Shown here in pieces: positions 29,398 through 39,937 of a stretch of 52,680 bases of DNA (positions are counted from its first letter, which is position 1; each line of letters opens with the position of its first letter). Source of the DNA: Methanospirillum sp. (GTDB lineage: Archaea; Halobacteriota; Methanomicrobia; Methanomicrobiales; Methanospirillaceae); the NCBI GenBank assembly GCA_012728895.1, contig JAAYEG010000049.1, forward strand, positions 1 through 52,680, read 5' to 3'. The notes beneath the pieces were generated by a model, which was not told where the DNA came from, searched no databases, and saw only the letters and a list, made by a program, of their open reading frames with translations. A program made the position numbers and the translations under genes.

Positions 29398-30237
29398 TCA
29401 GGTGCCGGGCCGATCCGTCGTCTCCCCGGGGTCCCCCTCCCCTCTCTTCTTCATCGTCTGTGAGAGAGCGACCAGCCCGGCCGTGTCTCCCAGGCCCATC
29501 GTGTTGAGAACAGGCGCCGGGACGAGTACCAGGACGGCGTTGCTGCTCTTCAGGCCCTCGTACAGCATGTTCATGCCCCGGAGGTGGAGCGCGGTCGAGT
29601 TGTCGGAGTAGGTCCGGGCCGCCTCCTCGAAGGCCCGCGCGATCTGCCTCTCGGAGTCACCGAGGATGACCCGCGCCTGCCGCTCACGCTCCGCCTGTGC
29701 CTGCATCGACATCGCGTCCTGGAGCGCGGTGGGGATGACCACGTCGCGGATCTCCACGGAAAGGACGTCGATCCCCCACCCGTCGATCCTGCTCTGGATC
29801 GTCTTCTGGAGCTCCTGGTCGATGATCTCCCTGCCGGCCAGCATGTCCGCGAGCACGGTCTTGCCGATCACGTCCCTGAGCGCCGTCTGGGCCGCCAGGA
29901 GCACGGCCCCGCGGTAGTCCTCGACCTGGAGCGCAGCCTTCTCCACGTCGGTCACCTTCCAGAAGAGCACCGCGTCCACGTTCACCGGGACGGTGTCCAT
30001 GGTGAGGGTCTGCTCGGCGGTGAACGAGGTCGTGATCACCCGCAGGTCGATCCTGTACGGGACAGTGTTGAGGAAGGGGACGATGAATACCAGTCCCGGG
30101 CCCCGCACACCGACGAACCTCCCGAGGTACAGCACGACGATCCGTTCCCACTGCTTGACGATCCTGATGCTCAGCGCGACGAGCGCGACGAGGATGGCCA
30201 GGATCAACAGGATGATCACTATCGTCACCGGGTTCAT
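29398..30237 (-). CDS. Slipin / stomatin-like SPFH-domain membrane protein
   Basis: This is a 279-residue protein. One N-terminal transmembrane helix (~4-26) is followed by a slipin SPFH domain (WERIVVLYLGRFVGVRGPG, DTVPVNVDAVLFWKVTD) and a charged coiled coil (MSMQAQAERERQARVILGDSER). A C-terminal region follows it. Slipins assemble membrane rings or lipid microdomains and usually pair with a NfeD protease partner, which is not seen here. It is divergent from pspA across ~250 bp, so it is probably part of the same membrane-stress locus. Confidence 0.93.
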   Translation of the reverse strand: MNPVTIVIILLILAILVALVALSIRIVKQWERIVVLYLGRFVGVRGPGLVFIVPFLNTVPYRIDLRVITTSFTAEQTLTMDTVPVNVDAVLFWKVTDVEKAALQVEDYRGAVLLAAQTALRDVIGKTVLADMLAGREIIDQELQKTIQSRIDGWGIDVLSVEIRDVVIPTALQDAMSMQAQAERERQARVILGDSERQIARAFEEAARTYSDNSTALHLRGMNMLYEGLKSSNAVLVLVPAPVLNTMGLGDTAGLVALSQTMKKRGEGDPGETTDRPGT

Positions 30238-30484
30238 GCCTGCTCCGTCTCTCTTCGTGGCTAACAGGGGAGAGGCGCGTAAAATGATATCGAATGCTGC
30301 AACAATTGCATGGATGCCCGGCGGGGCGCTCCCCGGGGACGTCCGCCGGGTTCCGGCGGATTCGAGCGCGTGACCGGATCTCGGGGCGGACTGGCCCGTT
30401 CGCTCGGGAAAGGTATATCTCGCAGCTCGTCAGGTTATCAAGAAGAACGTGTTGGCGGATGACGCCATCGGGAGTGAACACAGG

Positions 30485-31183
30485 ATGGGTCTATTAAATC
30501 GAATGGGAACCGTGATCAAGGCCAAGATGAACAAGCTGATCGGCAAGGCGGAGGATCCCAGGGAGACGCTCGACTACTCGTACGAGCGGCAGCTCGAACT
30601 GTTGCAGAACGTGAAGCGGGGCGTCGCGGACGTCGCGACCTCGAAGAAGCGGCTGCAGCTCCAGCGGGCGAAGCTTGTCGAGAACAGCTCGAAGCTCGAG
30701 ACGCAGGCGCGCGAGGCGGTCCGGGTCGAGCGGGAGGACCTCGCCCGGCTCGCGCTCGAGCGCAGGAGCGCCATCGACTCCCAGGTCGCCACCCTCGACC
30801 AGGAGATCGCCGGGCTCGAGGCCGAGCAGCAGAAGCTGGTCGACGCCGAGCGGCGTCTGTCCACGAAGATCGAGGTCTTCAGGACCAAGAAAGAGACGAT
30901 CAAGGCCCAGTACTCTGCTGCCGAGGCCCAGGTCAAGATCAGCGAGTCGGTCTCGGGGATCAGCGAGGAGATGGCCGACGTCGGGCTCTCCATCGAGCGG
31001 GCCGAGGAGAAGACCGAGGAGATGAAGGCCCGCTCGGCAGCCCTCGACGAGCTGATCGAGCAGGGCACGCTCGAGGACTTCACGGGGCGTGAGGACGCCG
31101 TCGAGCGGGAACTCGCGAAGATCGGGGCGCAGGGAGCGGTCGAGACCGAACTCGCCAGGCTGAAGGCGGAGGAGGGAAAATGA
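30485..31183 (+). CDS. pspA: PspA/IM30 membrane-stress protein
   Basis: This 232-residue, nearly all-helical protein begins MGLLNRMGTVIKAKMNKLI, the amphipathic membrane-binding helix of PspA/Vipp1. The family-typical EDPRETLDYSYERQLELLQ and a long coiled coil follow. It is an ESCRT-III-like membrane remodeller and stabiliser. ATG 30485 has GGGAGTGA 8 nt upstream; a TATA-like GGTATATCT (30411-30419) fits a ~45-nt leader. It overlaps pspAA by 4 bp. No PspF or PspB/C is present, as expected in archaea. Confidence 0.94.
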   Translation: MGLLNRMGTVIKAKMNKLIGKAEDPRETLDYSYERQLELLQNVKRGVADVATSKKRLQLQRAKLVENSSKLETQAREAVRVEREDLARLALERRSAIDSQVATLDQEIAGLEAEQQKLVDAERRLSTKIEVFRTKKETIKAQYSAAEAQVKISESVSGISEEMADVGLSIERAEEKTEEMKARSAALDELIEQGTLEDFTGREDAVERELAKIGAQGAVETELARLKAEEGK

Positions 31184-31458
31184 TCATCAGGGTCATGGGC
31201 GAGGGGCAGTATCTCGTGGATAGCAGCCTCTTCGACGTCCTGAACGAGATCGACAACCGGATCGTCGAAGACGTGACGAAGGGAGACGGGCAGGCCTTCA
31301 GGCAGGGGCTCGACGACCTGATCGGGGAGATCCGCCGGGCGGGAAAACCGGTGGCCGAGACCGACCTGATCGAGTCCGATGTCATCGTCCCCCCGGCAAA
31401 CCTGACCCTTGCCGAGGCGCGGGAAGTCTTCCAGGGGACCGGGGTCTTCCAGGACTGA
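31180..31458 (+). CDS. pspAA: PspA-associated protein PspAA
   Basis: This 92-residue protein begins MIIRVMGEGQYLVDSSLFDVLN, with LIESDVIVPPANLTLAEARE near the end, matching the PspAA domain that accompanies PspA in archaea and actinobacteria. It overlaps the pspA stop in an ATGA quartet and is translationally coupled. It is thought to modulate or bind PspA, but the mechanism is not established. It is convergent with pspAB across 24 bp. Confidence 0.9.
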   Translation: MIIRVMGEGQYLVDSSLFDVLNEIDNRIVEDVTKGDGQAFRQGLDDLIGEIRRAGKPVAETDLIESDVIVPPANLTLAEAREVFQGTGVFQD

Positions 31459-31482
31459 CGGCCCCGTGGCGGCGGGGGAGGC

Positions 31483-32052
31483 CTAGAGCGGGATCCCCCG
31501 CAGGGGGTACCACTCCTCCACCGAGGTCTCGATCGGGAGCTCCCGCTCGAGCATGGCGCGCAGACGGAACTCGCAGGCCGAGTCCCTGCCCTCGTCAACG
31601 GGCACGAAGGGATAGTAGCGTCCCCGCTTGAACGTGAAGATCCAGTAGGCCCGCCGGTTCCCGTCGAACGCGTACACGGCGCAGAGAAGGTACGGGCCGT
31701 AACCCCGTTCGATGAGGGTCTGGCTGATCAGGTGGATCCCCGCAACAAGGTCCTCGAAGTCGGGGTCCTCGAGGACCACCCAGGTGTACCGGTACTGGTC
31801 GGTTTCCAGCCGGTACGAGGTCCCTGTCTCTTCTCTGCCGAAGGCGAGCAGTTCCTCGATCTCGCCCCGGACCCTGGCGGCGCGGGCGGAGTCGATCGGC
31901 CGGAAGCAGAGGGCCGCGGACCCGGCGGGCTCGAGGCCGAGGGCGGCCTGCATGGTGACCCTCGCGGTCGCGATCGCGAAGAGGCGCTCCGTGTCCGCCT
32001 CGGGGATCCGCCCGGTGCCGAGCAGGGCGTCGAGCGCCTCCCGAAACCCCAT
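31483..32052 (-). CDS. pspAB: PspA-associated protein PspAB
   Basis: This 189-residue protein begins MGFREALDALLGTGRIPEAD and contains LVAGIHLISQTLIERGYG and YWIFTFKRGRYYPF, as in the PspAB family, which is regularly linked to PspA, PspAA and HtpX. It is a soluble alpha/beta protein of unknown mechanism. Its ATG shares one base with the TGA of htpX, so the two are coupled. Its position facing pspA-pspAA completes the archaeal Psp module. Confidence 0.88.
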   Translation of the reverse strand: MGFREALDALLGTGRIPEADTERLFAIATARVTMQAALGLEPAGSAALCFRPIDSARAARVRGEIEELLAFGREETGTSYRLETDQYRYTWVVLEDPDFEDLVAGIHLISQTLIERGYGPYLLCAVYAFDGNRRAYWIFTFKRGRYYPFVPVDEGRDSACEFRLRAMLERELPIETSVEEWYPLRGIPL

Positions 32053-32954
32053 CAGCCCATCTCCCGTTCGAGTCTCTCGAGCGCCGCGATCCGCGCCTCG
32101 ACCGGCGGGTGCGAGTCGAGTATCCCGAGTATCGAGCCGCGCGAGGCGGCCGGGATGATGAAGAAGGCGTTCATCCCCTCGACCTCCCGGAGGTCCCGGG
32201 TCGGGACCCGCTCCATCAGCCCGCTGATCTTCGCGAGAGCCGAGGCGAGGTGAGAGGGCTGCCCGGTCAGGAGCGCCGACCCCCGGTCAGCCGAGAACTC
32301 GCGGTAGCGCGAGAGGGCCCGGATCAGCAGGAAGCTCGCGCCGTAGACGGCGCCAGCGACCAGCGCCACGATTACCAGGACCGCCCTGGGATCGATCTGC
32401 CCCCCTCCCCCGCCGCGGTATCCCCTTCCGCTGCCCCCCAGGGAGAGCCCGAACCGGAAGATGAAGAAGGCGGCGGTCGAGAGGAGGCCGGCGATGGTGA
32501 TCACAACGACGTCGCGGTTCCTGACGTGGGAGAGCTCGTGGGCGAGAACGGCCTCGAGCTCGTCCCGGTTGAGCCGCTGCATGAGTCCCGTCGTGACCGC
32601 GATCACGGCGTTCTTCGGCGACCGGCCGGCCGCGAAGGCATTGGGGACGGTTGAGTCCACGACGGCGAGCCGCGGACGGGGGATCCCCGCAATCGCGGAG
32701 AGGCGCGTCATCGTCTCATGGAGTTGCGGGGCCTCGTCCTCGGCCAGCAGGCGGGCGCCCATCCCGGAGAGGACCAGGCGGTCGGAGAGGAAGTACTGGA
32801 TCAGCAGGGCGCCGGCGACGATCACCAGCAGCATGACGGTCCCGACGCCGAGGTAGACCAGGAAGCCGACGAACGCCGCGTACACGACGCCGAGCATCGC
32901 GACTGTCCCGATCATCCTCGACTGCAACCCCCAGTCCCGCGGCCATCGCATCAT
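32052..32954 (-). CDS. htpX: HtpX-family membrane zinc metalloprotease
   Basis: This 300-residue M48 protease has the catalytic motif HELSH in AVLAHELSHVRNRD (~residue 140) and a third zinc ligand in REFSADRGSALL. Two N-terminal and two central membrane segments flank them. Typical HtpX motifs VVDSTVPNAFAAGRSP and HPPVEARIAALERL are present. It degrades damaged membrane proteins. ATG 32954 has GGAGG 6-8 nt upstream; the TATA-like AGTATATAGATA (33063-33074, read in reverse) is its promoter. It is followed directly by pspAB. Confidence 0.95.
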   Translation of the reverse strand: MMRWPRDWGLQSRMIGTVAMLGVVYAAFVGFLVYLGVGTVMLLVIVAGALLIQYFLSDRLVLSGMGARLLAEDEAPQLHETMTRLSAIAGIPRPRLAVVDSTVPNAFAAGRSPKNAVIAVTTGLMQRLNRDELEAVLAHELSHVRNRDVVVITIAGLLSTAAFFIFRFGLSLGGSGRGYRGGGGGQIDPRAVLVIVALVAGAVYGASFLLIRALSRYREFSADRGSALLTGQPSHLASALAKISGLMERVPTRDLREVEGMNAFFIIPAASRGSILGILDSHPPVEARIAALERLEREMG

Positions 32955-33260
32955 CGCGCCCCTCCTCTCGACCCGGGGGATCCACGGTGCACCCGCCCTC
33001 CCTGCAGGACCGCCGTTCTCCGGGTGCATCCGGATTCCGGTATGATCAGAGAGTGGGCCGCAAGTATATAGATACCCGTCGGGGGGCGACGGCTCTCCCC
33101 CTGACACCCAGTCGGCGCTACCTCGCCGGCGGGCGTTCTCTTCGAAGGGGGCCTGCCGGCCCTTCCAGGGTTCCCCGCGCCTTGCGAGAGCGCGGTGGCC
33201 ATGGGCCGTCTCTCGGCGGGACCGGCATTCTGATATCGAGAGGAATCCCTTTGTACCTGG

Positions 33261-33345: not shown

Positions 33346-33544
33346 TTTCTGTTCGCGTTCGCTTCGACCGGGTCTCGGTATAACTGCGCGAAGGCCGGTC
33401 CGCCCACTGCGTCCTGCTGCCCGGACAGGTCTGCCGGCACCCTTCCAGCCGTGTCCCCAGGGGTCCCGGGGTGGAACCGCCGCCGCCCCTGCCCGATGGT
33501 ATTTTTGAGCCTGCCGCCCATCTTGAGATCTGGGAGTGATCCAC

Positions 33545-34075
33545 GTGAGAGGCGACCTTCACGATCTCGATCCCGACGGGCTGCGGGAGTACCTCGACTT
33601 TCTCCTCTGGCACTACCGGGTCGTCGACGCCTTCTGGTTCATAGAGACCGCGAACGCGTACGGCCAGGAGGCGGCAGAGGCCCTGAACGAGCGGGTCTGG
33701 GGACGGGTGGCCGGCATGGGCGCGCGCGACCTGCGTCGGCGCTTCGGGCTCACCCGGACAGGCCTCGCCGGATTCGTCGAGACCCTCCGTTTCTTCCCGT
33801 GGGCGGTGATCGTGGGCTACGAGATCGAGGAGTCCGGGGATCTCGTCGAGATCCGCGTCCCGTCGTGCCCGTCGCAGGAGGCCCGGCTCCGGCGGGGGCA
33901 GGGGGAGTATGTCTGCCGGGAAATGCACCGCGCAGAGTTCACCTCGATCGCGCGCGAGGTCGACCCGCGGATCCGGGTCGAGTGCGTCCACGCCCCGCCC
34001 GACCCCCATCCTCCCGGCGAGTACTGCCACTGGCGGTTTACGATGGCGGACGAGCCCGGCGGCGGGAGCGGGTGA
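33545..34075 (+). CDS. DUF6125-like family protein
   Basis: This 176-residue protein has a helical N-terminal half ([20 protein letters not shown]) and a C-terminal half ending with [10 protein letters not shown]. This resembles the DUF6125 / L-2-amino-thiazoline-4-carboxylate-hydrolase-like group, which has no proven role in archaea. Conserved Cys ([26 protein letters not shown]) may bind a metal or cofactor. GTG 33545 is chosen over GTG 33536, because GGGAGTGAT (33532-33540) is a near-perfect Shine-Dalgarno at proper spacing only for the former. It is a single gene convergent with the CHAD fusion. Confidence 0.7.
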
Positions 34076-34108: not shown

Positions 34109-35998
34109 TCAGCCTCCGTTCCCCGTTGCCTCGATCCGGGGGGAGGCGCCCGGATCGTCGTACGGCACCCGGAGGAGGGAGATGTCGAGGGGGGAGACCT
34201 GGAGCAGGGCGTACTCGGCCATGGTGGCGCCTCCCTCCCCGGGCCCGGCCTCCCCCACGCTTCCGGGGTTGACGAGCAGGAACGATCCCGCGGACCGGAC
34301 GAAGGGGCGGTGGGTGTGCCCCGTGATCAGCACGTCGGCACCGGACGAGGTGGCGAGCCCGGCCACGACGTCGTCCGTGATCTCCCCGCCCTCCGCGGAC
34401 GATAACCGGTGGACGACCAGGAACCGGGTGCCGCGGAGCGTGAACCGGCGCTCTCCCGGGAGCGACGCGAGGTGGGCGAGCCCTGCCGGGTTCATCGACG
34501 CGGCGATCCTGGCGGCCTCCTTGGGGCTCGCTCCGGCCTGCTTCCGGGAAGCCCGGACCACCCGCCGGTCCCATTCGCCCAGCACATCGACGGACCCGAG
34601 CGCGACCAGCCGGCGGACGACCCCGCCGGGATCGCCTCCCCACCCGACGGTGTCGCCGGCGTTGATGAACGCCTGCGCGCCCCGGGCGGCGGCGTCGCGG
34701 GCCACGGCATCGAGCGCGGGAAGGTTGCCGTGGACGTCGGAAAACAGCGCGATCCGGGCCGTCTCGGTCCCCTCAGCGATCCGGCGGAGCTTTTCGGTCG
34801 GCTGGCCGGCCTCGTCCCGGGCGCGCGCCAGCCGCTCTTCCAGGCGCTCGGCGAAGCGGTCGGCCTCGAGCTCCTTCCAGATCTCGAGGGCCGCCGCGTG
34901 GAGACGGGACCGTTCCTCGACCCGGTCGGCGTGGAACCGCCGTATCCCGGGTTCGATGAACCTGAGGAACCCTTCGTTCCCGAAGTACGCGACGACCCGT
35001 TCGCGCTCCTCCTCCAGGAACCGGGGCAGCTGCTCGATCCAGACGTCGCAGTCGTGCAGCTCCCCCAGGGCGTCCTGGAGACGCTTGAGCGCCTTGAGCT
35101 CCTGCCTGAGCCCGTCGTCGAAGAGGGGAGCGAAGATCTCGACGGTGTAGCGGAGGCGCTTCGCGGCGATCCGCATCGCGTGGTGCTCGGGCGCCCGCGC
35201 CGGGTCCGGGAGCGCCGGGGCGTATACCCGGAGTTCGTCGCAGCGGAGCGCGCCGTTGAGGTGCGCGGCTGCGTACACGGGGCCGGAGCGTGGCGAGGCC
35301 CCCTCCCTGCGCGCCCGTATCTCGAGCGTCCGGAGTCCGACGGCCATCTCCTCGAGCGTCCCCGAGGCCTCGAGCCTGTCGAGCGCCTCGAGCACGGCGG
35401 GCTGCAGGGCCGCGCGCCGCTGCTCCAGGCGGAGCAGCAGGCACTCGATTCCCTGGGGCGCGGGGACGTTCTCGTCAAGGCGCCCGGGTGCGCTGCCGGG
35501 GGTGGGGACGGGGGCCGGATCCCGGGCCAGGGCCAGCCTGCGCCTTCTCAGCCACGCCCTGAATCCGGCGAGACGGCCTGTCGGTACTGCGGGCGCCTGG
35601 TCCGGGGGGGAGTCGGTCCCGGCGCTGGCCCCGAGCCGCGTCCCGGAGAGCAGCGGGGCCGCCGACGGGATCCCCCCTCCCGTCCCGACGCCGGGGAGCC
35701 CGGAGGCCCAGGACGCGAGGAAGGCGAGCTGGACGTCGGCGTCCCGCGCATCGCCGAGCGCACGGGTGATCGCCCGGACCTCCCGGCGCCACCGCGCGAC
35801 CTCCCTCCTCCTGCCGCACCCCTCGAAGAGCGGAAGCACTGCCCGGAGCCGGCGGCTCGCGACCCGCATCCGGTGGACGCACTCGATATCGCCGCCCGCC
35901 CGGATGCAGTCGACCTCGACACGGAGCTGGGGGAGGAGCTCGAGCATTCGCTGGGCGACGAAGAGGCAGTAGCCCGGGTCGTGCTGCGCGCCCGTCAT
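34109..35998 (-). CDS. CHAD domain - YfcE/MJ0936-type phosphoesterase fusion
   Basis: This is a 629-residue protein. Residues ~1-410 are a CHAD domain: two basic helical halves with HRMRVASRRLRAVLPLF and HHAMRIAAKRLRYTVEIF, plus DALGELHDCDVW; such domains bind polyphosphate. Residues ~415-629 are a calcineurin-like phosphoesterase with FSDVHGNLPALDAV, NAGDTVGWGGDP, GEWDR in place of GNHD, and ITGHTHRPF. The Asn-to-Glu and His-to-Trp changes in the third motif may alter catalysis. It starts 18 bp after the polyphosphate-kinase fusion and is surely cotranscribed. A polyphosphate-directed phosphatase or regulator is inferred. Confidence 0.88.
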   Translation of the reverse strand: MTGAQHDPGYCLFVAQRMLELLPQLRVEVDCIRAGGDIECVHRMRVASRRLRAVLPLFEGCGRRREVARWRREVRAITRALGDARDADVQLAFLASWASGLPGVGTGGGIPSAAPLLSGTRLGASAGTDSPPDQAPAVPTGRLAGFRAWLRRRRLALARDPAPVPTPGSAPGRLDENVPAPQGIECLLLRLEQRRAALQPAVLEALDRLEASGTLEEMAVGLRTLEIRARREGASPRSGPVYAAAHLNGALRCDELRVYAPALPDPARAPEHHAMRIAAKRLRYTVEIFAPLFDDGLRQELKALKRLQDALGELHDCDVWIEQLPRFLEEERERVVAYFGNEGFLRFIEPGIRRFHADRVEERSRLHAAALEIWKELEADRFAERLEERLARARDEAGQPTEKLRRIAEGTETARIALFSDVHGNLPALDAVARDAAARGAQAFINAGDTVGWGGDPGGVVRRLVALGSVDVLGEWDRRVVRASRKQAGASPKEAARIAASMNPAGLAHLASLPGERRFTLRGTRFLVVHRLSSAEGGEITDDVVAGLATSSGADVLITGHTHRPFVRSAGSFLLVNPGSVGEAGPGEGGATMAEYALLQVSPLDISLLRVPYDDPGASPRIEATGNGG

Positions 35999-36015: not shown

Positions 36016-38775
36016 TCACCGCGCCGCGCCTTGTCCCGGGCAGGGGTCCGCCGGGGGCACGGACCACTCCCCGCGGTGTTCGACCATCCAGGCCTGGGTG
36101 TCGAGCGACGCCTCTCCCTCCCGGGGCAGGACCCGCTCGTAGGTCCCGTCTGACAGGAGCCGGCGTGCCCCGGCCGTGTCGTCCAGGTGGACCAGCAGGA
36201 TCTGCCGGACCACGGCGTCCCGGAGGAACGGATCCCGGACCGGAAAGAGCACCTCCACGCGGCGGTTCAGGTTCCGGGGCATCAGGTCCGCGGACCCGAT
36301 CCAGACCTCCGCGTCGCCGCCGTTCCAGAAGCAGTAGACCCGCGCGTGCTCGAGGAACCGGCCGACGATCGAGGTGACCGTGATCCGGTCGCTGACGCCC
36401 GGGATCCCAGGCCGCAAACAGCAGATCCCCCGGACCTGGAGGTCGACCCTGACGCCGGCCTGCGAGGCCCGATACAGGGCCTCGATGCACTCCCGGTCGA
36501 CGAGCGCATTCATCTTGAAGATGAGCCGCCCGTCGCCGTGCTCGCGGTGGCGCGCGATCTCGCGCTCGACCCGGTCGAGGAGACCCGCCCGCAGCGTCCC
36601 GGGCGCGACCAGGAGCTCCCGGTAGCGTTCGATCCGGGCGTAGCCGGTCAGGTAGTTGAAGAGGTCCGAGACGTCCGCGCCGATCCGGGGGTCCCGGGTC
36701 AGGAGGCCGATGTCGGTATAGATCCGGGCCGTCTGGGTGTTGTAGTTACCCGTGCCCAGGTGGACGTACCGGACGAGTCCCTGGCGCTCGCGCCGGACCA
36801 CCAGGCAGACCTTGGCGTGGACCTTCATGTGGAGCAGGCCGTAGACGACGTGGACCCCGGCCTGCTCGAGCGCTCGCGCCCAGACGATGTTGTTCTCCTC
36901 GTCGAACCGCGCCTTGAGCTCGATCAGGGCGGTCACCTGCTTGCCGTTCTCGCGCGCCTCCATGAGCGCGTCCACGATCGGTGAGTTCGGGCCGACGCGG
37001 TAGAGGGTGATCTTGATCGCCAGGACGCCCGGATCGCGGGCCGCGTGCTGGAGGAACGAGAGTACCGGACCGAACGAGTCGTACGGGTGGTAGAGGAGGA
37101 GATCCTGCCGCTGCAGCGCGGCCCACGGGTCGCGTCCCGATGCGAGCTGGGCTGGGACGGCCGGAAGGAACGGGGGGTCGGTCAGCTTCGGGATGGAGAG
37201 TGCGGCGAGCTGGGCCAGGTCGGCCAGGCCGATCGGGGACTCCTGCCTTGAGACCTGCTCCGTCGCGATCCCGAGCTGCCGGGCGATGAACCGGCACCGT
37301 GCCTCCGGGATGGACCGGTCGACCTCGACCCGGACGGGGGCGCCAGTCCGCCGGAGCTCGACCGACTCCTCGACCGCGCTGAGCAGGTCGTCGGCCTCGT
37401 CCTCCGCGATCTCCAGGTCGGCGTTCCGAGTGACCCGGAAGGGGTAGGCGGCAACGACCTGGATGCCCGGGAAGAGGAGGTCCGCGTTCGCCGCGATCAG
37501 GTCCTCGAGGAAGACGAACTCGCGCCTCCCATCCCCTTCTGTTCGCGGGACCTCGACCAGCCGGGGGAGGGGGCCCACCGGGACCTTGAGCCGGGCGAAC
37601 CGGTCCCCGCAGTCCGCGTCACGAACCTCGAACGCCAGGTTGAGCGAGAGGTTCGAGATGAACGGGAACGGGTGAGAGGTGTCGAACGCGAGCGGGGTGA
37701 GAGCGGGGAAGATCTCGGCCTCGAACTGCCTGCGGAGGGCGGAGCGGGTTGCGGGTCCGAGCTCCGCCACGGGACGGACGCCGATCCCCGCCCGGTCCAG
37801 GGCCGGGCGAAGGTCGTCGGCCCAGCACCGGTGCGCGACCTCGAGGAGCGGGTCGACCGCGGCCCGGACCGCGTCGAGCTGCTGCCGGGGGGACATTCCG
37901 TCGGGGGGGGTATCGACGACTCCCTCGGCCAGCTGCCTGCGGAGCCCGGCCACCCGGATCATCCAGAACTCGTCCAGGTTGCTGGCGAATATTGCGAGGA
38001 ACTTCACCCGCTCCAGGAGCGGGTGGCGTGGGTCGAGGGCCTCGTCCAGGACGCGGCGGTTGAACTCGACCCAGCTCAGCTCCCGGTTGATGAACAGGCC
38101 CGGGCCGAGAGTCGCCCGGCCCGCTTCCCCCGCTTCCCCGGTCTCTCGCCTCTCTCCGATCATGCCCTCTCCCGGTGAAACGTCCGTCCTGCACCCCTGA
38201 GAAAGTTCCACCCCGGCCCCGCATATACCTGCCGCTCCCGCCCGCTCGCCCGCTCCCTGAAGCCGTTCCACGAGCCTGGCCGCGTGGGACCCGGCCCAGT
38301 AGAGCCTGCCGCAGTTCCCGCACGCTAGGACGTCGCCGGCAGAGACCCCGGCCGGGACGTACCCGGCGGCACGGACCTCGCCGGGAACAGACGGGCGGAG
38401 CGGGGTGTTGCAGCACGAGCAGCGGTCGAGCCGGAGCACCAGGTCGACCTGCCCGGCGCTGGCCAGGGCGGCCAGCTGGTCGAGCACGTCCTCCTCGGGG
38501 ACGAGGAGCCCGCCGCGGCGGGCGAGCTCGCGGTCGCGCGTGAGCAGGACCCGCCCCTCCCCCTCTGCCAGGCGGAGGAGCTCCGTGTCCTCGCTTGGCC
38601 CGCCCGGCCCGAGCTCGGTCGCGGAGAGAGTGTCGTAGCCCATGAACCGGAGGTACCGGACGAGCGGCCCGAGCATCCGGTCCACGACGAACCGTGGCCG
38701 GTCAGCGGGGCCGGACGGATCGCACAACCGGGATCGCCTCGCCGCACTGCCGGCAGGAGCTGCCGTCGAGCCCAC
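36016..38775 (-). CDS. ppk: Mut7-C RNase-like domain fused to polyphosphate kinase (PPK1)
   Basis: This is one uninterrupted 919-codon frame. Residues ~29-170 are a Mut7-C domain: FVVDRMLGPLVRYLRFMGYD, LLTRDRELARR and a zinc-ribbon-like CSCCNTPLR...CGNCGRLYW. After a ~55-residue linker, residues ~225-919 are PPK1: FINRELSWVEFNRRVLDEA, FASNLDEFW, LYRVGPNSPIVDAL and the phospho-His motif LLHMKVHAKVCLV. A second His is in FLEHARVYCFWNGGD. An internal ATG with GGGAGAGG before the PPK part could make PPK alone. The N-terminal start is uncertain (GTG 38775 overlaps the upstream gene; GTG 38685 is an alternative). Confidence 0.88.
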   Translation of the reverse strand: MGSTAAPAGSAARRSRLCDPSGPADRPRFVVDRMLGPLVRYLRFMGYDTLSATELGPGGPSEDTELLRLAEGEGRVLLTRDRELARRGGLLVPEEDVLDQLAALASAGQVDLVLRLDRCSCCNTPLRPSVPGEVRAAGYVPAGVSAGDVLACGNCGRLYWAGSHAARLVERLQGAGERAGAAGICGAGVELSQGCRTDVSPGEGMIGERRETGEAGEAGRATLGPGLFINRELSWVEFNRRVLDEALDPRHPLLERVKFLAIFASNLDEFWMIRVAGLRRQLAEGVVDTPPDGMSPRQQLDAVRAAVDPLLEVAHRCWADDLRPALDRAGIGVRPVAELGPATRSALRRQFEAEIFPALTPLAFDTSHPFPFISNLSLNLAFEVRDADCGDRFARLKVPVGPLPRLVEVPRTEGDGRREFVFLEDLIAANADLLFPGIQVVAAYPFRVTRNADLEIAEDEADDLLSAVEESVELRRTGAPVRVEVDRSIPEARCRFIARQLGIATEQVSRQESPIGLADLAQLAALSIPKLTDPPFLPAVPAQLASGRDPWAALQRQDLLLYHPYDSFGPVLSFLQHAARDPGVLAIKITLYRVGPNSPIVDALMEARENGKQVTALIELKARFDEENNIVWARALEQAGVHVVYGLLHMKVHAKVCLVVRRERQGLVRYVHLGTGNYNTQTARIYTDIGLLTRDPRIGADVSDLFNYLTGYARIERYRELLVAPGTLRAGLLDRVEREIARHREHGDGRLIFKMNALVDRECIEALYRASQAGVRVDLQVRGICCLRPGIPGVSDRITVTSIVGRFLEHARVYCFWNGGDAEVWIGSADLMPRNLNRRVEVLFPVRDPFLRDAVVRQILLVHLDDTAGARRLLSDGTYERVLPREGEASLDTQAWMVEHRGEWSVPPADPCPGQGAAR

Positions 38776-39730
38776 GGAGCCGGCCCTGTAACATGCTTCG
38801 CTCGATCAGCAGGTTCCCGCAGGCAGGGCACCAGGTGTTCTCGTTCCGATGACCCCCGACGTTCCCCAGGTACGGGAAGCGGAGCCCGAGTTCGAGGGCC
38901 CGCTCGTAGATCCGCTCGAGGGTCCGGACAGGGGTGGGTGCCCGGTCACGCATCCGGTAGTCGGGGTGGAACCGGGTGAAGTGCATCGGGGTGTCCGGCC
39001 CGAGCTCCTCGATGACCCAGCGGATCAGGGCATCGATCTCCGCTGGCGCGTCGTTCAGCCCCGGGATCACGAGCGTGACCGTCTCGACGTGCATGCCCGC
39101 CTCGTGCGCCCGCCTGGTCGCGGCGAGGACGGGGTCCAGGTGCGCCCCGCAGACCGTCCGGTAGAAGCCGTCGTCGAACGCCTTCAGGTCGACCCGGAAC
39201 GCGTCGAGCACGGGGGCGAGGGCGTCGACGGCCTCCTCGGTCATGTAGCCGTTCGTGACCCAGACCGTCCCCAGGCCGGCGCCGTGGGCGATGCGGCCCG
39301 TGTCCAGTGAGTACTCGAACGACATGGTCGGCTCGTTGTAGGTCCAGGAGATGGAGGCGCAGCCGGATGCGACGGCCCGGTCGACCGCCTCTCCCGGTTC
39401 GAGCAGGGGGAGGGACTCGACGGCGTCCGCCGCGCGGGAGAGCTGCCAGTTCTGGCAGTGTTCACACGTGAAGTTGCACCCGACCGAGCCGAGCGAGTAG
39501 CAGAGCGTCCCGGGGAGGAAGTGGTTGAGCGGTTTCTTCTCGATAGGATCCACGTGCTCCGCGCTCACCCTGCCGTAGGAGGCCGACCAGAGGACGCCCT
39601 CGCGGTTCCGGCGGACGCCGCACCGTCCCGTCCGCCCCCCGGCGATCCGGCACCGATGGTTGCAGAGCCGGCAGTCCGCCGTCCCGTCGGGGTTCTTCGT
39701 GTAGAGCTGTGCCTCGTGCACGTGCGTCAC
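38702..39730 (-). CDS. amrS: AmmeMemoRadiSam-type radical SAM enzyme (PflA-like)
   Basis: This 342-residue radical SAM protein has the cluster motif CNFTCEHCQNW (~residue 80), a preceding Cys-rich segment (CRLCNHRCRI, CGVRR) and a C-terminal zinc-ribbon-like tail (CPACG...CRQCG). This is the architecture of the AmmeMemoRadiSam-system radical SAM enzyme. AMMECR1 and Memo partners are not in the window. The reaction is unknown. A TATA-like GATTAATATT (39759-39768, reverse) is ~30 bp before GTG 39730; GTG 39721 is an alternative start. It is followed with overlap by the Mut7-C-PPK gene. Confidence 0.88.
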   Translation of the reverse strand: MTHVHEAQLYTKNPDGTADCRLCNHRCRIAGGRTGRCGVRRNREGVLWSASYGRVSAEHVDPIEKKPLNHFLPGTLCYSLGSVGCNFTCEHCQNWQLSRAADAVESLPLLEPGEAVDRAVASGCASISWTYNEPTMSFEYSLDTGRIAHGAGLGTVWVTNGYMTEEAVDALAPVLDAFRVDLKAFDDGFYRTVCGAHLDPVLAATRRAHEAGMHVETVTLVIPGLNDAPAEIDALIRWVIEELGPDTPMHFTRFHPDYRMRDRAPTPVRTLERIYERALELGLRFPYLGNVGGHRNENTWCPACGNLLIERSMLQGRLRGLDGSSCRQCGEAIPVVRSVRPR

Positions 39731-39937
39731 CGATCTCCGGTGGCGCCGCTGCAATATTAATCCGTCCGTGCCCTGGTCCGCTGCTCTCGCTCCCTCGAGC
39801 GCCATCTGCCCGGGGGATCGTGACCCGGGGCAGGCCCGTATCCCCGGATGCACCGGGGAGGTCGTGCGGGACGGAAAGAACGGGACCTGGGCAGCTCAAC
39901 AGGTATATCTGGTCGTCAGGGCCAATTAATGCGATAA

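Follow-up and report, generated by a model that had tools for sequence, protein, structure and literature searches.

A CHAD domain fused to a calcineurin-like phosphoesterase in the polyphosphate kinase operon of Methanospirillum and its relatives: a probable polyphosphate-anchored phosphohydrolase module

Phosphohydrolases covalently joined to a polyphosphate- (polyP-) binding CHAD domain are known from the TTM-CHAD (ygiF-type) triphosphatases, as described in the available portions of PMC6537752 and PMC4641920. In those proteins the catalytic part is the N-terminal TTM/CYTH domain, whereas in the protein described here it is a C-terminal calcineurin-like metallophosphoesterase (MPE); no Pfam match to a CYTH/TTM domain was found in this protein, whose CHAD domain already starts at residue 19. 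The MPE half resembles SapH/Spr1479 (PDB 3qfm-3qfo) and the YfcE/MJ0936-type phosphodiesterases, which share the MPE fold and a motif IV without His (GNWE and GNCD, respectively). These enzymes, however, stand alone, whereas the present MPE is fused and has Glu at the position of the Asn ligand. CHAD proteins encoded beside polyP enzymes in polyP operons have also been reported before (PMC6537752, available text), but these stand-alone proteins have no fused hydrolase. A CHAD-MPE annotation is already in print for Mhun_2988 of Methanospirillum hungatei; in the accessible text of that paper CHAD is tied to metal chelation, and polyP, an operon, and partner exchange are not discussed. CHAD has 0 occurrences in the main text of the archaeal polyP paper PMC6864096. 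Within the available parts of the literature on CHAD with polyphosphate, phosphoesterase, and methanogens, no account of the operon, or of an exchange of MPE and HD as described below, was found, and Iyer & Aravind 2002 may hold an earlier mention of CHAD-phosphoesterase fusions. The present protein thus appears to be a variant within an already known kind, the CHAD-linked phosphohydrolases.

The features of the locus are collected in Table 1, with positions in the window, that is, the whole stretch of 52,680 nucleotides of Methanospirillum sp. DNA that was analysed. The CHAD.MPE frame opens with ATG at 35998, is stop-free, and ends with TGA at 34109. CHAD (PF05235) scores 154.3 bits against a curated cut-off of 25.6 and MPE (PF12850, Metallophos_2) 69.5 bits against 27, which bears out, within a single frame, the claim of the sequence-only reading that CHAD is covalently tied to a phosphoesterase. 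The fusion is far beyond chance because full-length homologues, with 34-55% identity, are spread through the Methanomicrobiales; the named relatives are Methanoregulaceae and other members of this order. In the window genome (95% complete, 80 contigs), a single CHAD gene and a single PPK1 were found, and they are adjacent to each other, at a measured distance of 17 bp instead of the 18 bp first given. The description of PPK as a fusion agrees with the one open frame that it shares with an N-terminal Mut7-C domain; this frame may be a true fusion, or a stop may have been lost and PPK may start inside the frame. Mut7-C and PPK, joined at 36016-38775 of the window, are separate neighbouring genes in five regions of the same genus (L083-L085, L108, and L148), and in L083-L085, the nearest named relatives, 64-69 bp lie between the Mut7-C stop and the opening of the PPK frame. 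A gene cluster of the envelope stress type (SPFH, PspA, PspAB, and HtpX) adjoins CHAD.MPE at 29398-33107.

Table 1. Position, strand, and evidence for the features of the CHAD.MPE locus in the window.
Feature	Position	Strand	Evidence or remark
CDS, 629 aa, CHAD domain fused to calcineurin-like phosphoesterase (MPE)	34109..35998	-	Reading frame, Pfam, AlphaFold2, fold matches
CHAD domain, residues 19-324	35027..35944	-	Pfam; polyP-contact residues H42, R45, R49, R85, R283, Y284, K302, K305 by alignment to C. tepidum CHAD and the mutants in PMC6537752 (available text)
MPE domain, residues 415-592	34223..34756	-	Pfam and alignment; ligands D421, H423, D449, H530, H561, and H563 retained, Glu instead of Asn at 475 (GEWD)
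PPK1 (polyphosphate kinase) with N-terminal Mut7-C in one open frame	36016..38775	-	Stop 17 bp before CHAD.MPE start
DUF6125 gene, convergent	33536..34075	+	33 bp past CHAD.MPE stop
AmmeMemoRadiSam-type radical SAM gene	38702..39853	-	Upstream neighbour, conserved in part of the family

The AlphaFold2 model of the protein (31 sequences; mean pLDDT 83.9, pTM 0.66) has high confidence in both domains, with low-confidence stretches in loops 107-174 and at the C-terminus. The CHAD half aligns with 6qva, the polyP-bound CHAD of Chlorobium tepidum (CtCHAD), over 298 residues (Z 24.4, rmsd 4.0), and by this match it has the two four-helix bundles of the CHAD fold. Mutagenesis of CtCHAD has indicated that H253, R256, R260, R296, R418/Y419, R438, and K441 matter for polyP binding (PMC6537752, available text). 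By alignment, which did not reach the back-side residues R385-K390, H253, R256, R260, R296, R418, Y419, and K441 are identical in the window protein (H42, R45, R49, R85, R283, Y284, and K305), and the change of R438 to Lys (K302) is the only substitution among the eight polyP-contact positions. This conservation fits the earlier designation of CHAD as a polyphosphate domain and suggests that the window CHAD probably still binds polyP. The MPE half aligns with SapH (3qfn) over 209 residues (Z 21.9, rmsd 2.9), with Z 17.1 to 1s3l and 15.3 to YfcE; these PDB matches tell the fold, not the substrate.

The active site was compared in an alignment of 62 distinct fused MPEs, in which the seven metal ligands are D, H, D, N, H, H, and H. 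All seven are kept in 53 proteins, and nine are degenerate, among them the window MPE, which has six of the seven and in which Asn475 is replaced by Glu. Within this set, Glu at the Asn position is common only to the window and to one other protein (L109), which lacks five further ligands. It had been remarked that the usual GNHD motif here reads GEWD; the letters are indeed those of residues 474-477, but GNHD is not the usual motif of this group, as its His position is occupied by His in 0/62 fused MPEs (24 have Tyr, 13 Ile, the rest others), and the notable change is Asn475Glu. A loss of function through the lost GNHD His was ruled out because the His is missing in all 62 fused proteins, in SapH, which aligns with GNWE at motif IV and shares the W with GEWD, and in YfcE, which is active with a GNCD motif (PMC4320098, available text). 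GNH[D/E] at motif IV is the signature of class III cyclic-nucleotide phosphodiesterases (Rv0805/CpdA) according to the same source, and none of the 62 fused MPEs carries it, the His being missing throughout. Against the YfcE family model TIGR00040 the window protein falls below the NCBIfam cut-off (54.2 against 56.25 bits), whereas two intact relatives, L156 and L111, exceed it (65.6 and 59.2 bits). CHAD-linked MPEs that have lost some metal ligands, or a piece, also occur in other lineages (L100, L103, L106, L109, L112, and L159).

Linkage to PPK1 was surveyed in 120 Methanomicrobiales genomes, with CHAD and PPK1 counted over profile cut-offs. CHAD was found in 51 genomes and PPK1 in 64; PPK1 is present in all 51 CHAD genomes, which are mutually related and do not represent 51 independent events, and CHAD over cut-off was found in 0/56 PPK1-less genomes of the survey, the lists being compared by eye. 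Neighbourhoods were examined in 50 regions from 49 genomes; the two remaining CHAD genomes are that of the window and G110, in which the CHAD fragment lies at the end of a contig. A tblastn search placed a same-strand PPK1 no more than 2 kb upstream of 43 of the 50 CHAD loci (25/28 with MPE, 11/14 with HD, and 7/8 with CHAD alone); among the seven loci without it, one, L054, has its start 237 bp away from the end of its contig. The order of PPK and CHAD.phosphoesterase is therefore conserved and not random. A ppx gene follows downstream in 22/28 CHAD.MPE loci, 10/14 CHAD.HD loci, and 1/8 CHAD-only loci, and PPX was found in 45/51 CHAD genomes, with the window genome among the six without it. 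The wider operon can be written as (pst-phoU)-ppk1(-ppk1/ppk2)-CHAD.MPE-HD-ppx, and in part of one family (f2) the genes follow each other in the order pst-phoU-ppk1(-PPK2)-CHAD.MPE-HD-ppx. A tandem PPK1 pair directly precedes CHAD.MPE in L032, L035, L036, L044-L046, and L048 (G069 and genus g16 of family f6); in L032 and L035 it appears as a pair of frames, and in the other five it is inferred from match length.

The hydrolase attached to CHAD is not constant. MPE is absent from 22 of the 50 CHAD loci. A second set, the 80 best of 318 relatives that come from named genomes, overlaps the 50 regions and shares contigs with them; it comprises 29 CHAD.MPE, 16 CHAD.MPE.HD, 13 CHAD.HD, 13 CHAD alone, and nine loci where CHAD stands beside a separate MPE gene. 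In these 80, the triple fusions come from Methanomassiliicoccales, Methanolliviera, and similar lineages and have PPK1 upstream in 16/16 cases, while the nine loci with a separate MPE gene are all bacterial, the MPE of one (L160) being poorly aligned. In one of the bacterial loci, of Anaerolineaceae (L119:5934-7520), the separate MPE gene beside CHAD is itself fused to SAM_HAT (SAM hydroxide adenosyltransferase); a fusion of this MPE to HD was ruled out, as Pfam finds SAM_HAT there, and L117, L118, and L126 have MPE frames of similar length. The exchanged HD domain belongs by Pfam to PF21447 (Ppx-GppA_III), with one case (L144) just under the cut-off. When 155 HD domains were placed in a tree, those inside PPX stood apart from the rest with a support of 0.975 and two exceptions, which are probably PPX pieces, being short frames without the first His. 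Motifs were counted on unique sequences (142 of the 155 rows, leaving out four further matches classed as 'other'): the full H-HD-D metal motif is present in 68/73 free or CHAD-linked HDs (25/29 free, 25/26 CHAD.HD, 16/16 triple, and 2/2 MPE.HD) against 0/69 PPX-internal HDs, where the last position is Glu in 66. Because the motif is kept in the free and CHAD-linked domains and not in the PPX-internal ones, the exchanged HD resembles a functional HD hydrolase rather than just the polyP-binding part of PPX. A free-standing Ppx-GppA_III-like HD with an intact motif lies between CHAD.MPE and ppx in L043 (10349-10933) and its relatives.

The reading that we prefer, with a probability of roughly 0.6, is that CHAD.MPE is a polyphosphate-anchored phosphohydrolase module in a conserved methanogen polyP operon, of which the copy in the window may be catalytically impaired. 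PPK1 would make polyP, the CHAD domain would hold the chain, and the metal-dependent hydrolase joined to this domain (the MPE here, HD or both in relatives) would act on a phosphoanhydride substrate within the chain's reach. The substrate would most likely be polyP itself or a nucleotide tied to polyP turnover, with the hydrolase working alongside PPX; a nucleotide is considered because the known substrates of SapH and YfcE are nucleotides and model diesters and do not include polyP. In the window lineage, the HD and PPX would be gone and the MPE would act, if at all, without its Asn metal ligand, whereas polyP binding would probably be retained. Doubt about the module arises because the MPE is dispensable, as its absence from the CHAD loci counted above and its degeneration in nine of the 62 fused proteins attest. 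More tentatively, CHAD might serve as a polyphosphate handle that can carry either or both of two unrelated metal hydrolases, the calcineurin-like MPE and a catalytically complete HD related to domain III of PPX; this would be a polyP-trimming system, so far undescribed, that operates between PPK1 and PPX and of which the window lineage is losing the hydrolases while keeping the handle, an extension that is possible rather than probable.

Compatible with this family-wide explanation, and with an even chance of being correct, is the proposal that the MPE of the window lineage is a pseudoenzyme, with CHAD binding polyP and the MPE fold either serving as a scaffold or decaying. Besides Asn475Glu in the window, the genus (which includes L083, L084, L085, L108, and L148) contains MPEs without three ligands (L083) or two (G188), and no MPE was found in L108 and L148; L084 and L085, on the other hand, are intact, and Glu, which stands at the one altered ligand of the window copy, is a residue that can bind metal. 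Nei-Gojobori estimates of dN/dS between the window and G188 are 0.53 for CHAD and 0.41 for MPE, compared with 0.28 for PPK, 0.27 for AmmeRS, 0.25 for PyrH, and 0.23 for DUF6125, so that selection on both halves is weaker than on the neighbours and still purifying, the values lying well under 1. The MPE dN/dS is 0.15 in the intact pair L084/L085 and 0.31-0.33 for L083 against these two. The MPE/CHAD branch ratio of the window (1.17) is above 29 of 33 intact lineages, but four are higher, and the value is therefore high yet inside the intact range and not proof of decay. This ratio separates seven degenerate lineages (window excluded) from the 33 intact ones with a one-sided p of 0.001, uncorrected for relatedness and with 21 lineages omitted whose CHAD branches are ≤0.08, L083 included. 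In G188 a ppx gene lies between CHAD.MPE and DUF6125, where the window has just 33 bp, and a profile search of the window genome (95% complete, 80 contigs) gave no match to Ppx-GppA or Ppx-GppA_III, although PPK2 genes are present; the organism seems to have lost ppx, with the reservation that the assembly is incomplete. The window copy may accordingly be slow, altered, or catalytically inactive, judging from its residues. The earlier picture of a synthesis/turnover cassette is strengthened by the conserved PPK1 linkage and by the addition of ppx, an HD hydrolase, and pst/phoU in the wider operon, but the window copy itself makes a weak case for an active enzyme because one of seven ligands is gone, same-genus MPEs have decayed or been lost, and selection is relaxed.

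HD enzymes often have nucleotides as their substrates, and the exchange partner of the MPE is a canonical HD hydrolase. In this regard, the MPE could be a nucleotide hydrolase (of ApnA, ATP, or similar) that CHAD merely places on polyP granules, where it would control a nucleotide pool or signal governing PPK/PPX or clear granule nucleotides. The best Foldseek match of the MPE half by E-value is SapH, whose structure bears the title of an asymmetric Ap4A hydrolase and phosphodiesterase and whose motif has the same W, and intact relatives weakly match an ApaH-type NCBIfam model. However, fold neighbours are a poor guide to substrate, and the operon genes of the f2 loci examined are solely those of polyP and phosphate uptake; this alternative is considered unlikely, though it retains some weight. 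That the neighbourhood was inherited by chance, the fusion being functionally unrelated to polyP, is very improbable and already disfavoured: PyrH, AmmeRS, and Mut7-C on the far side are also conserved in part of the family, which makes local synteny alone weak, but the PPK1-CHAD link is kept in five families (f1, f2, f3, f4, and f6) with differing outer neighbours, and CHAD over cut-off never occurs without PPK1 in the 120 genomes.

The proposed polyphosphate-anchored module bears on the ways in which archaea trim or adjust their polyphosphate and on roles of CHAD beyond binding. Two unrelated hydrolases on one polyP-binding base in a PPK1-PPX operon make a case for presentation of the chain to an enzyme by CHAD, and this case can be tested in the intact relatives that occur in cultured Methanocalculus, Methanocorpusculum, and Methanospirillum.
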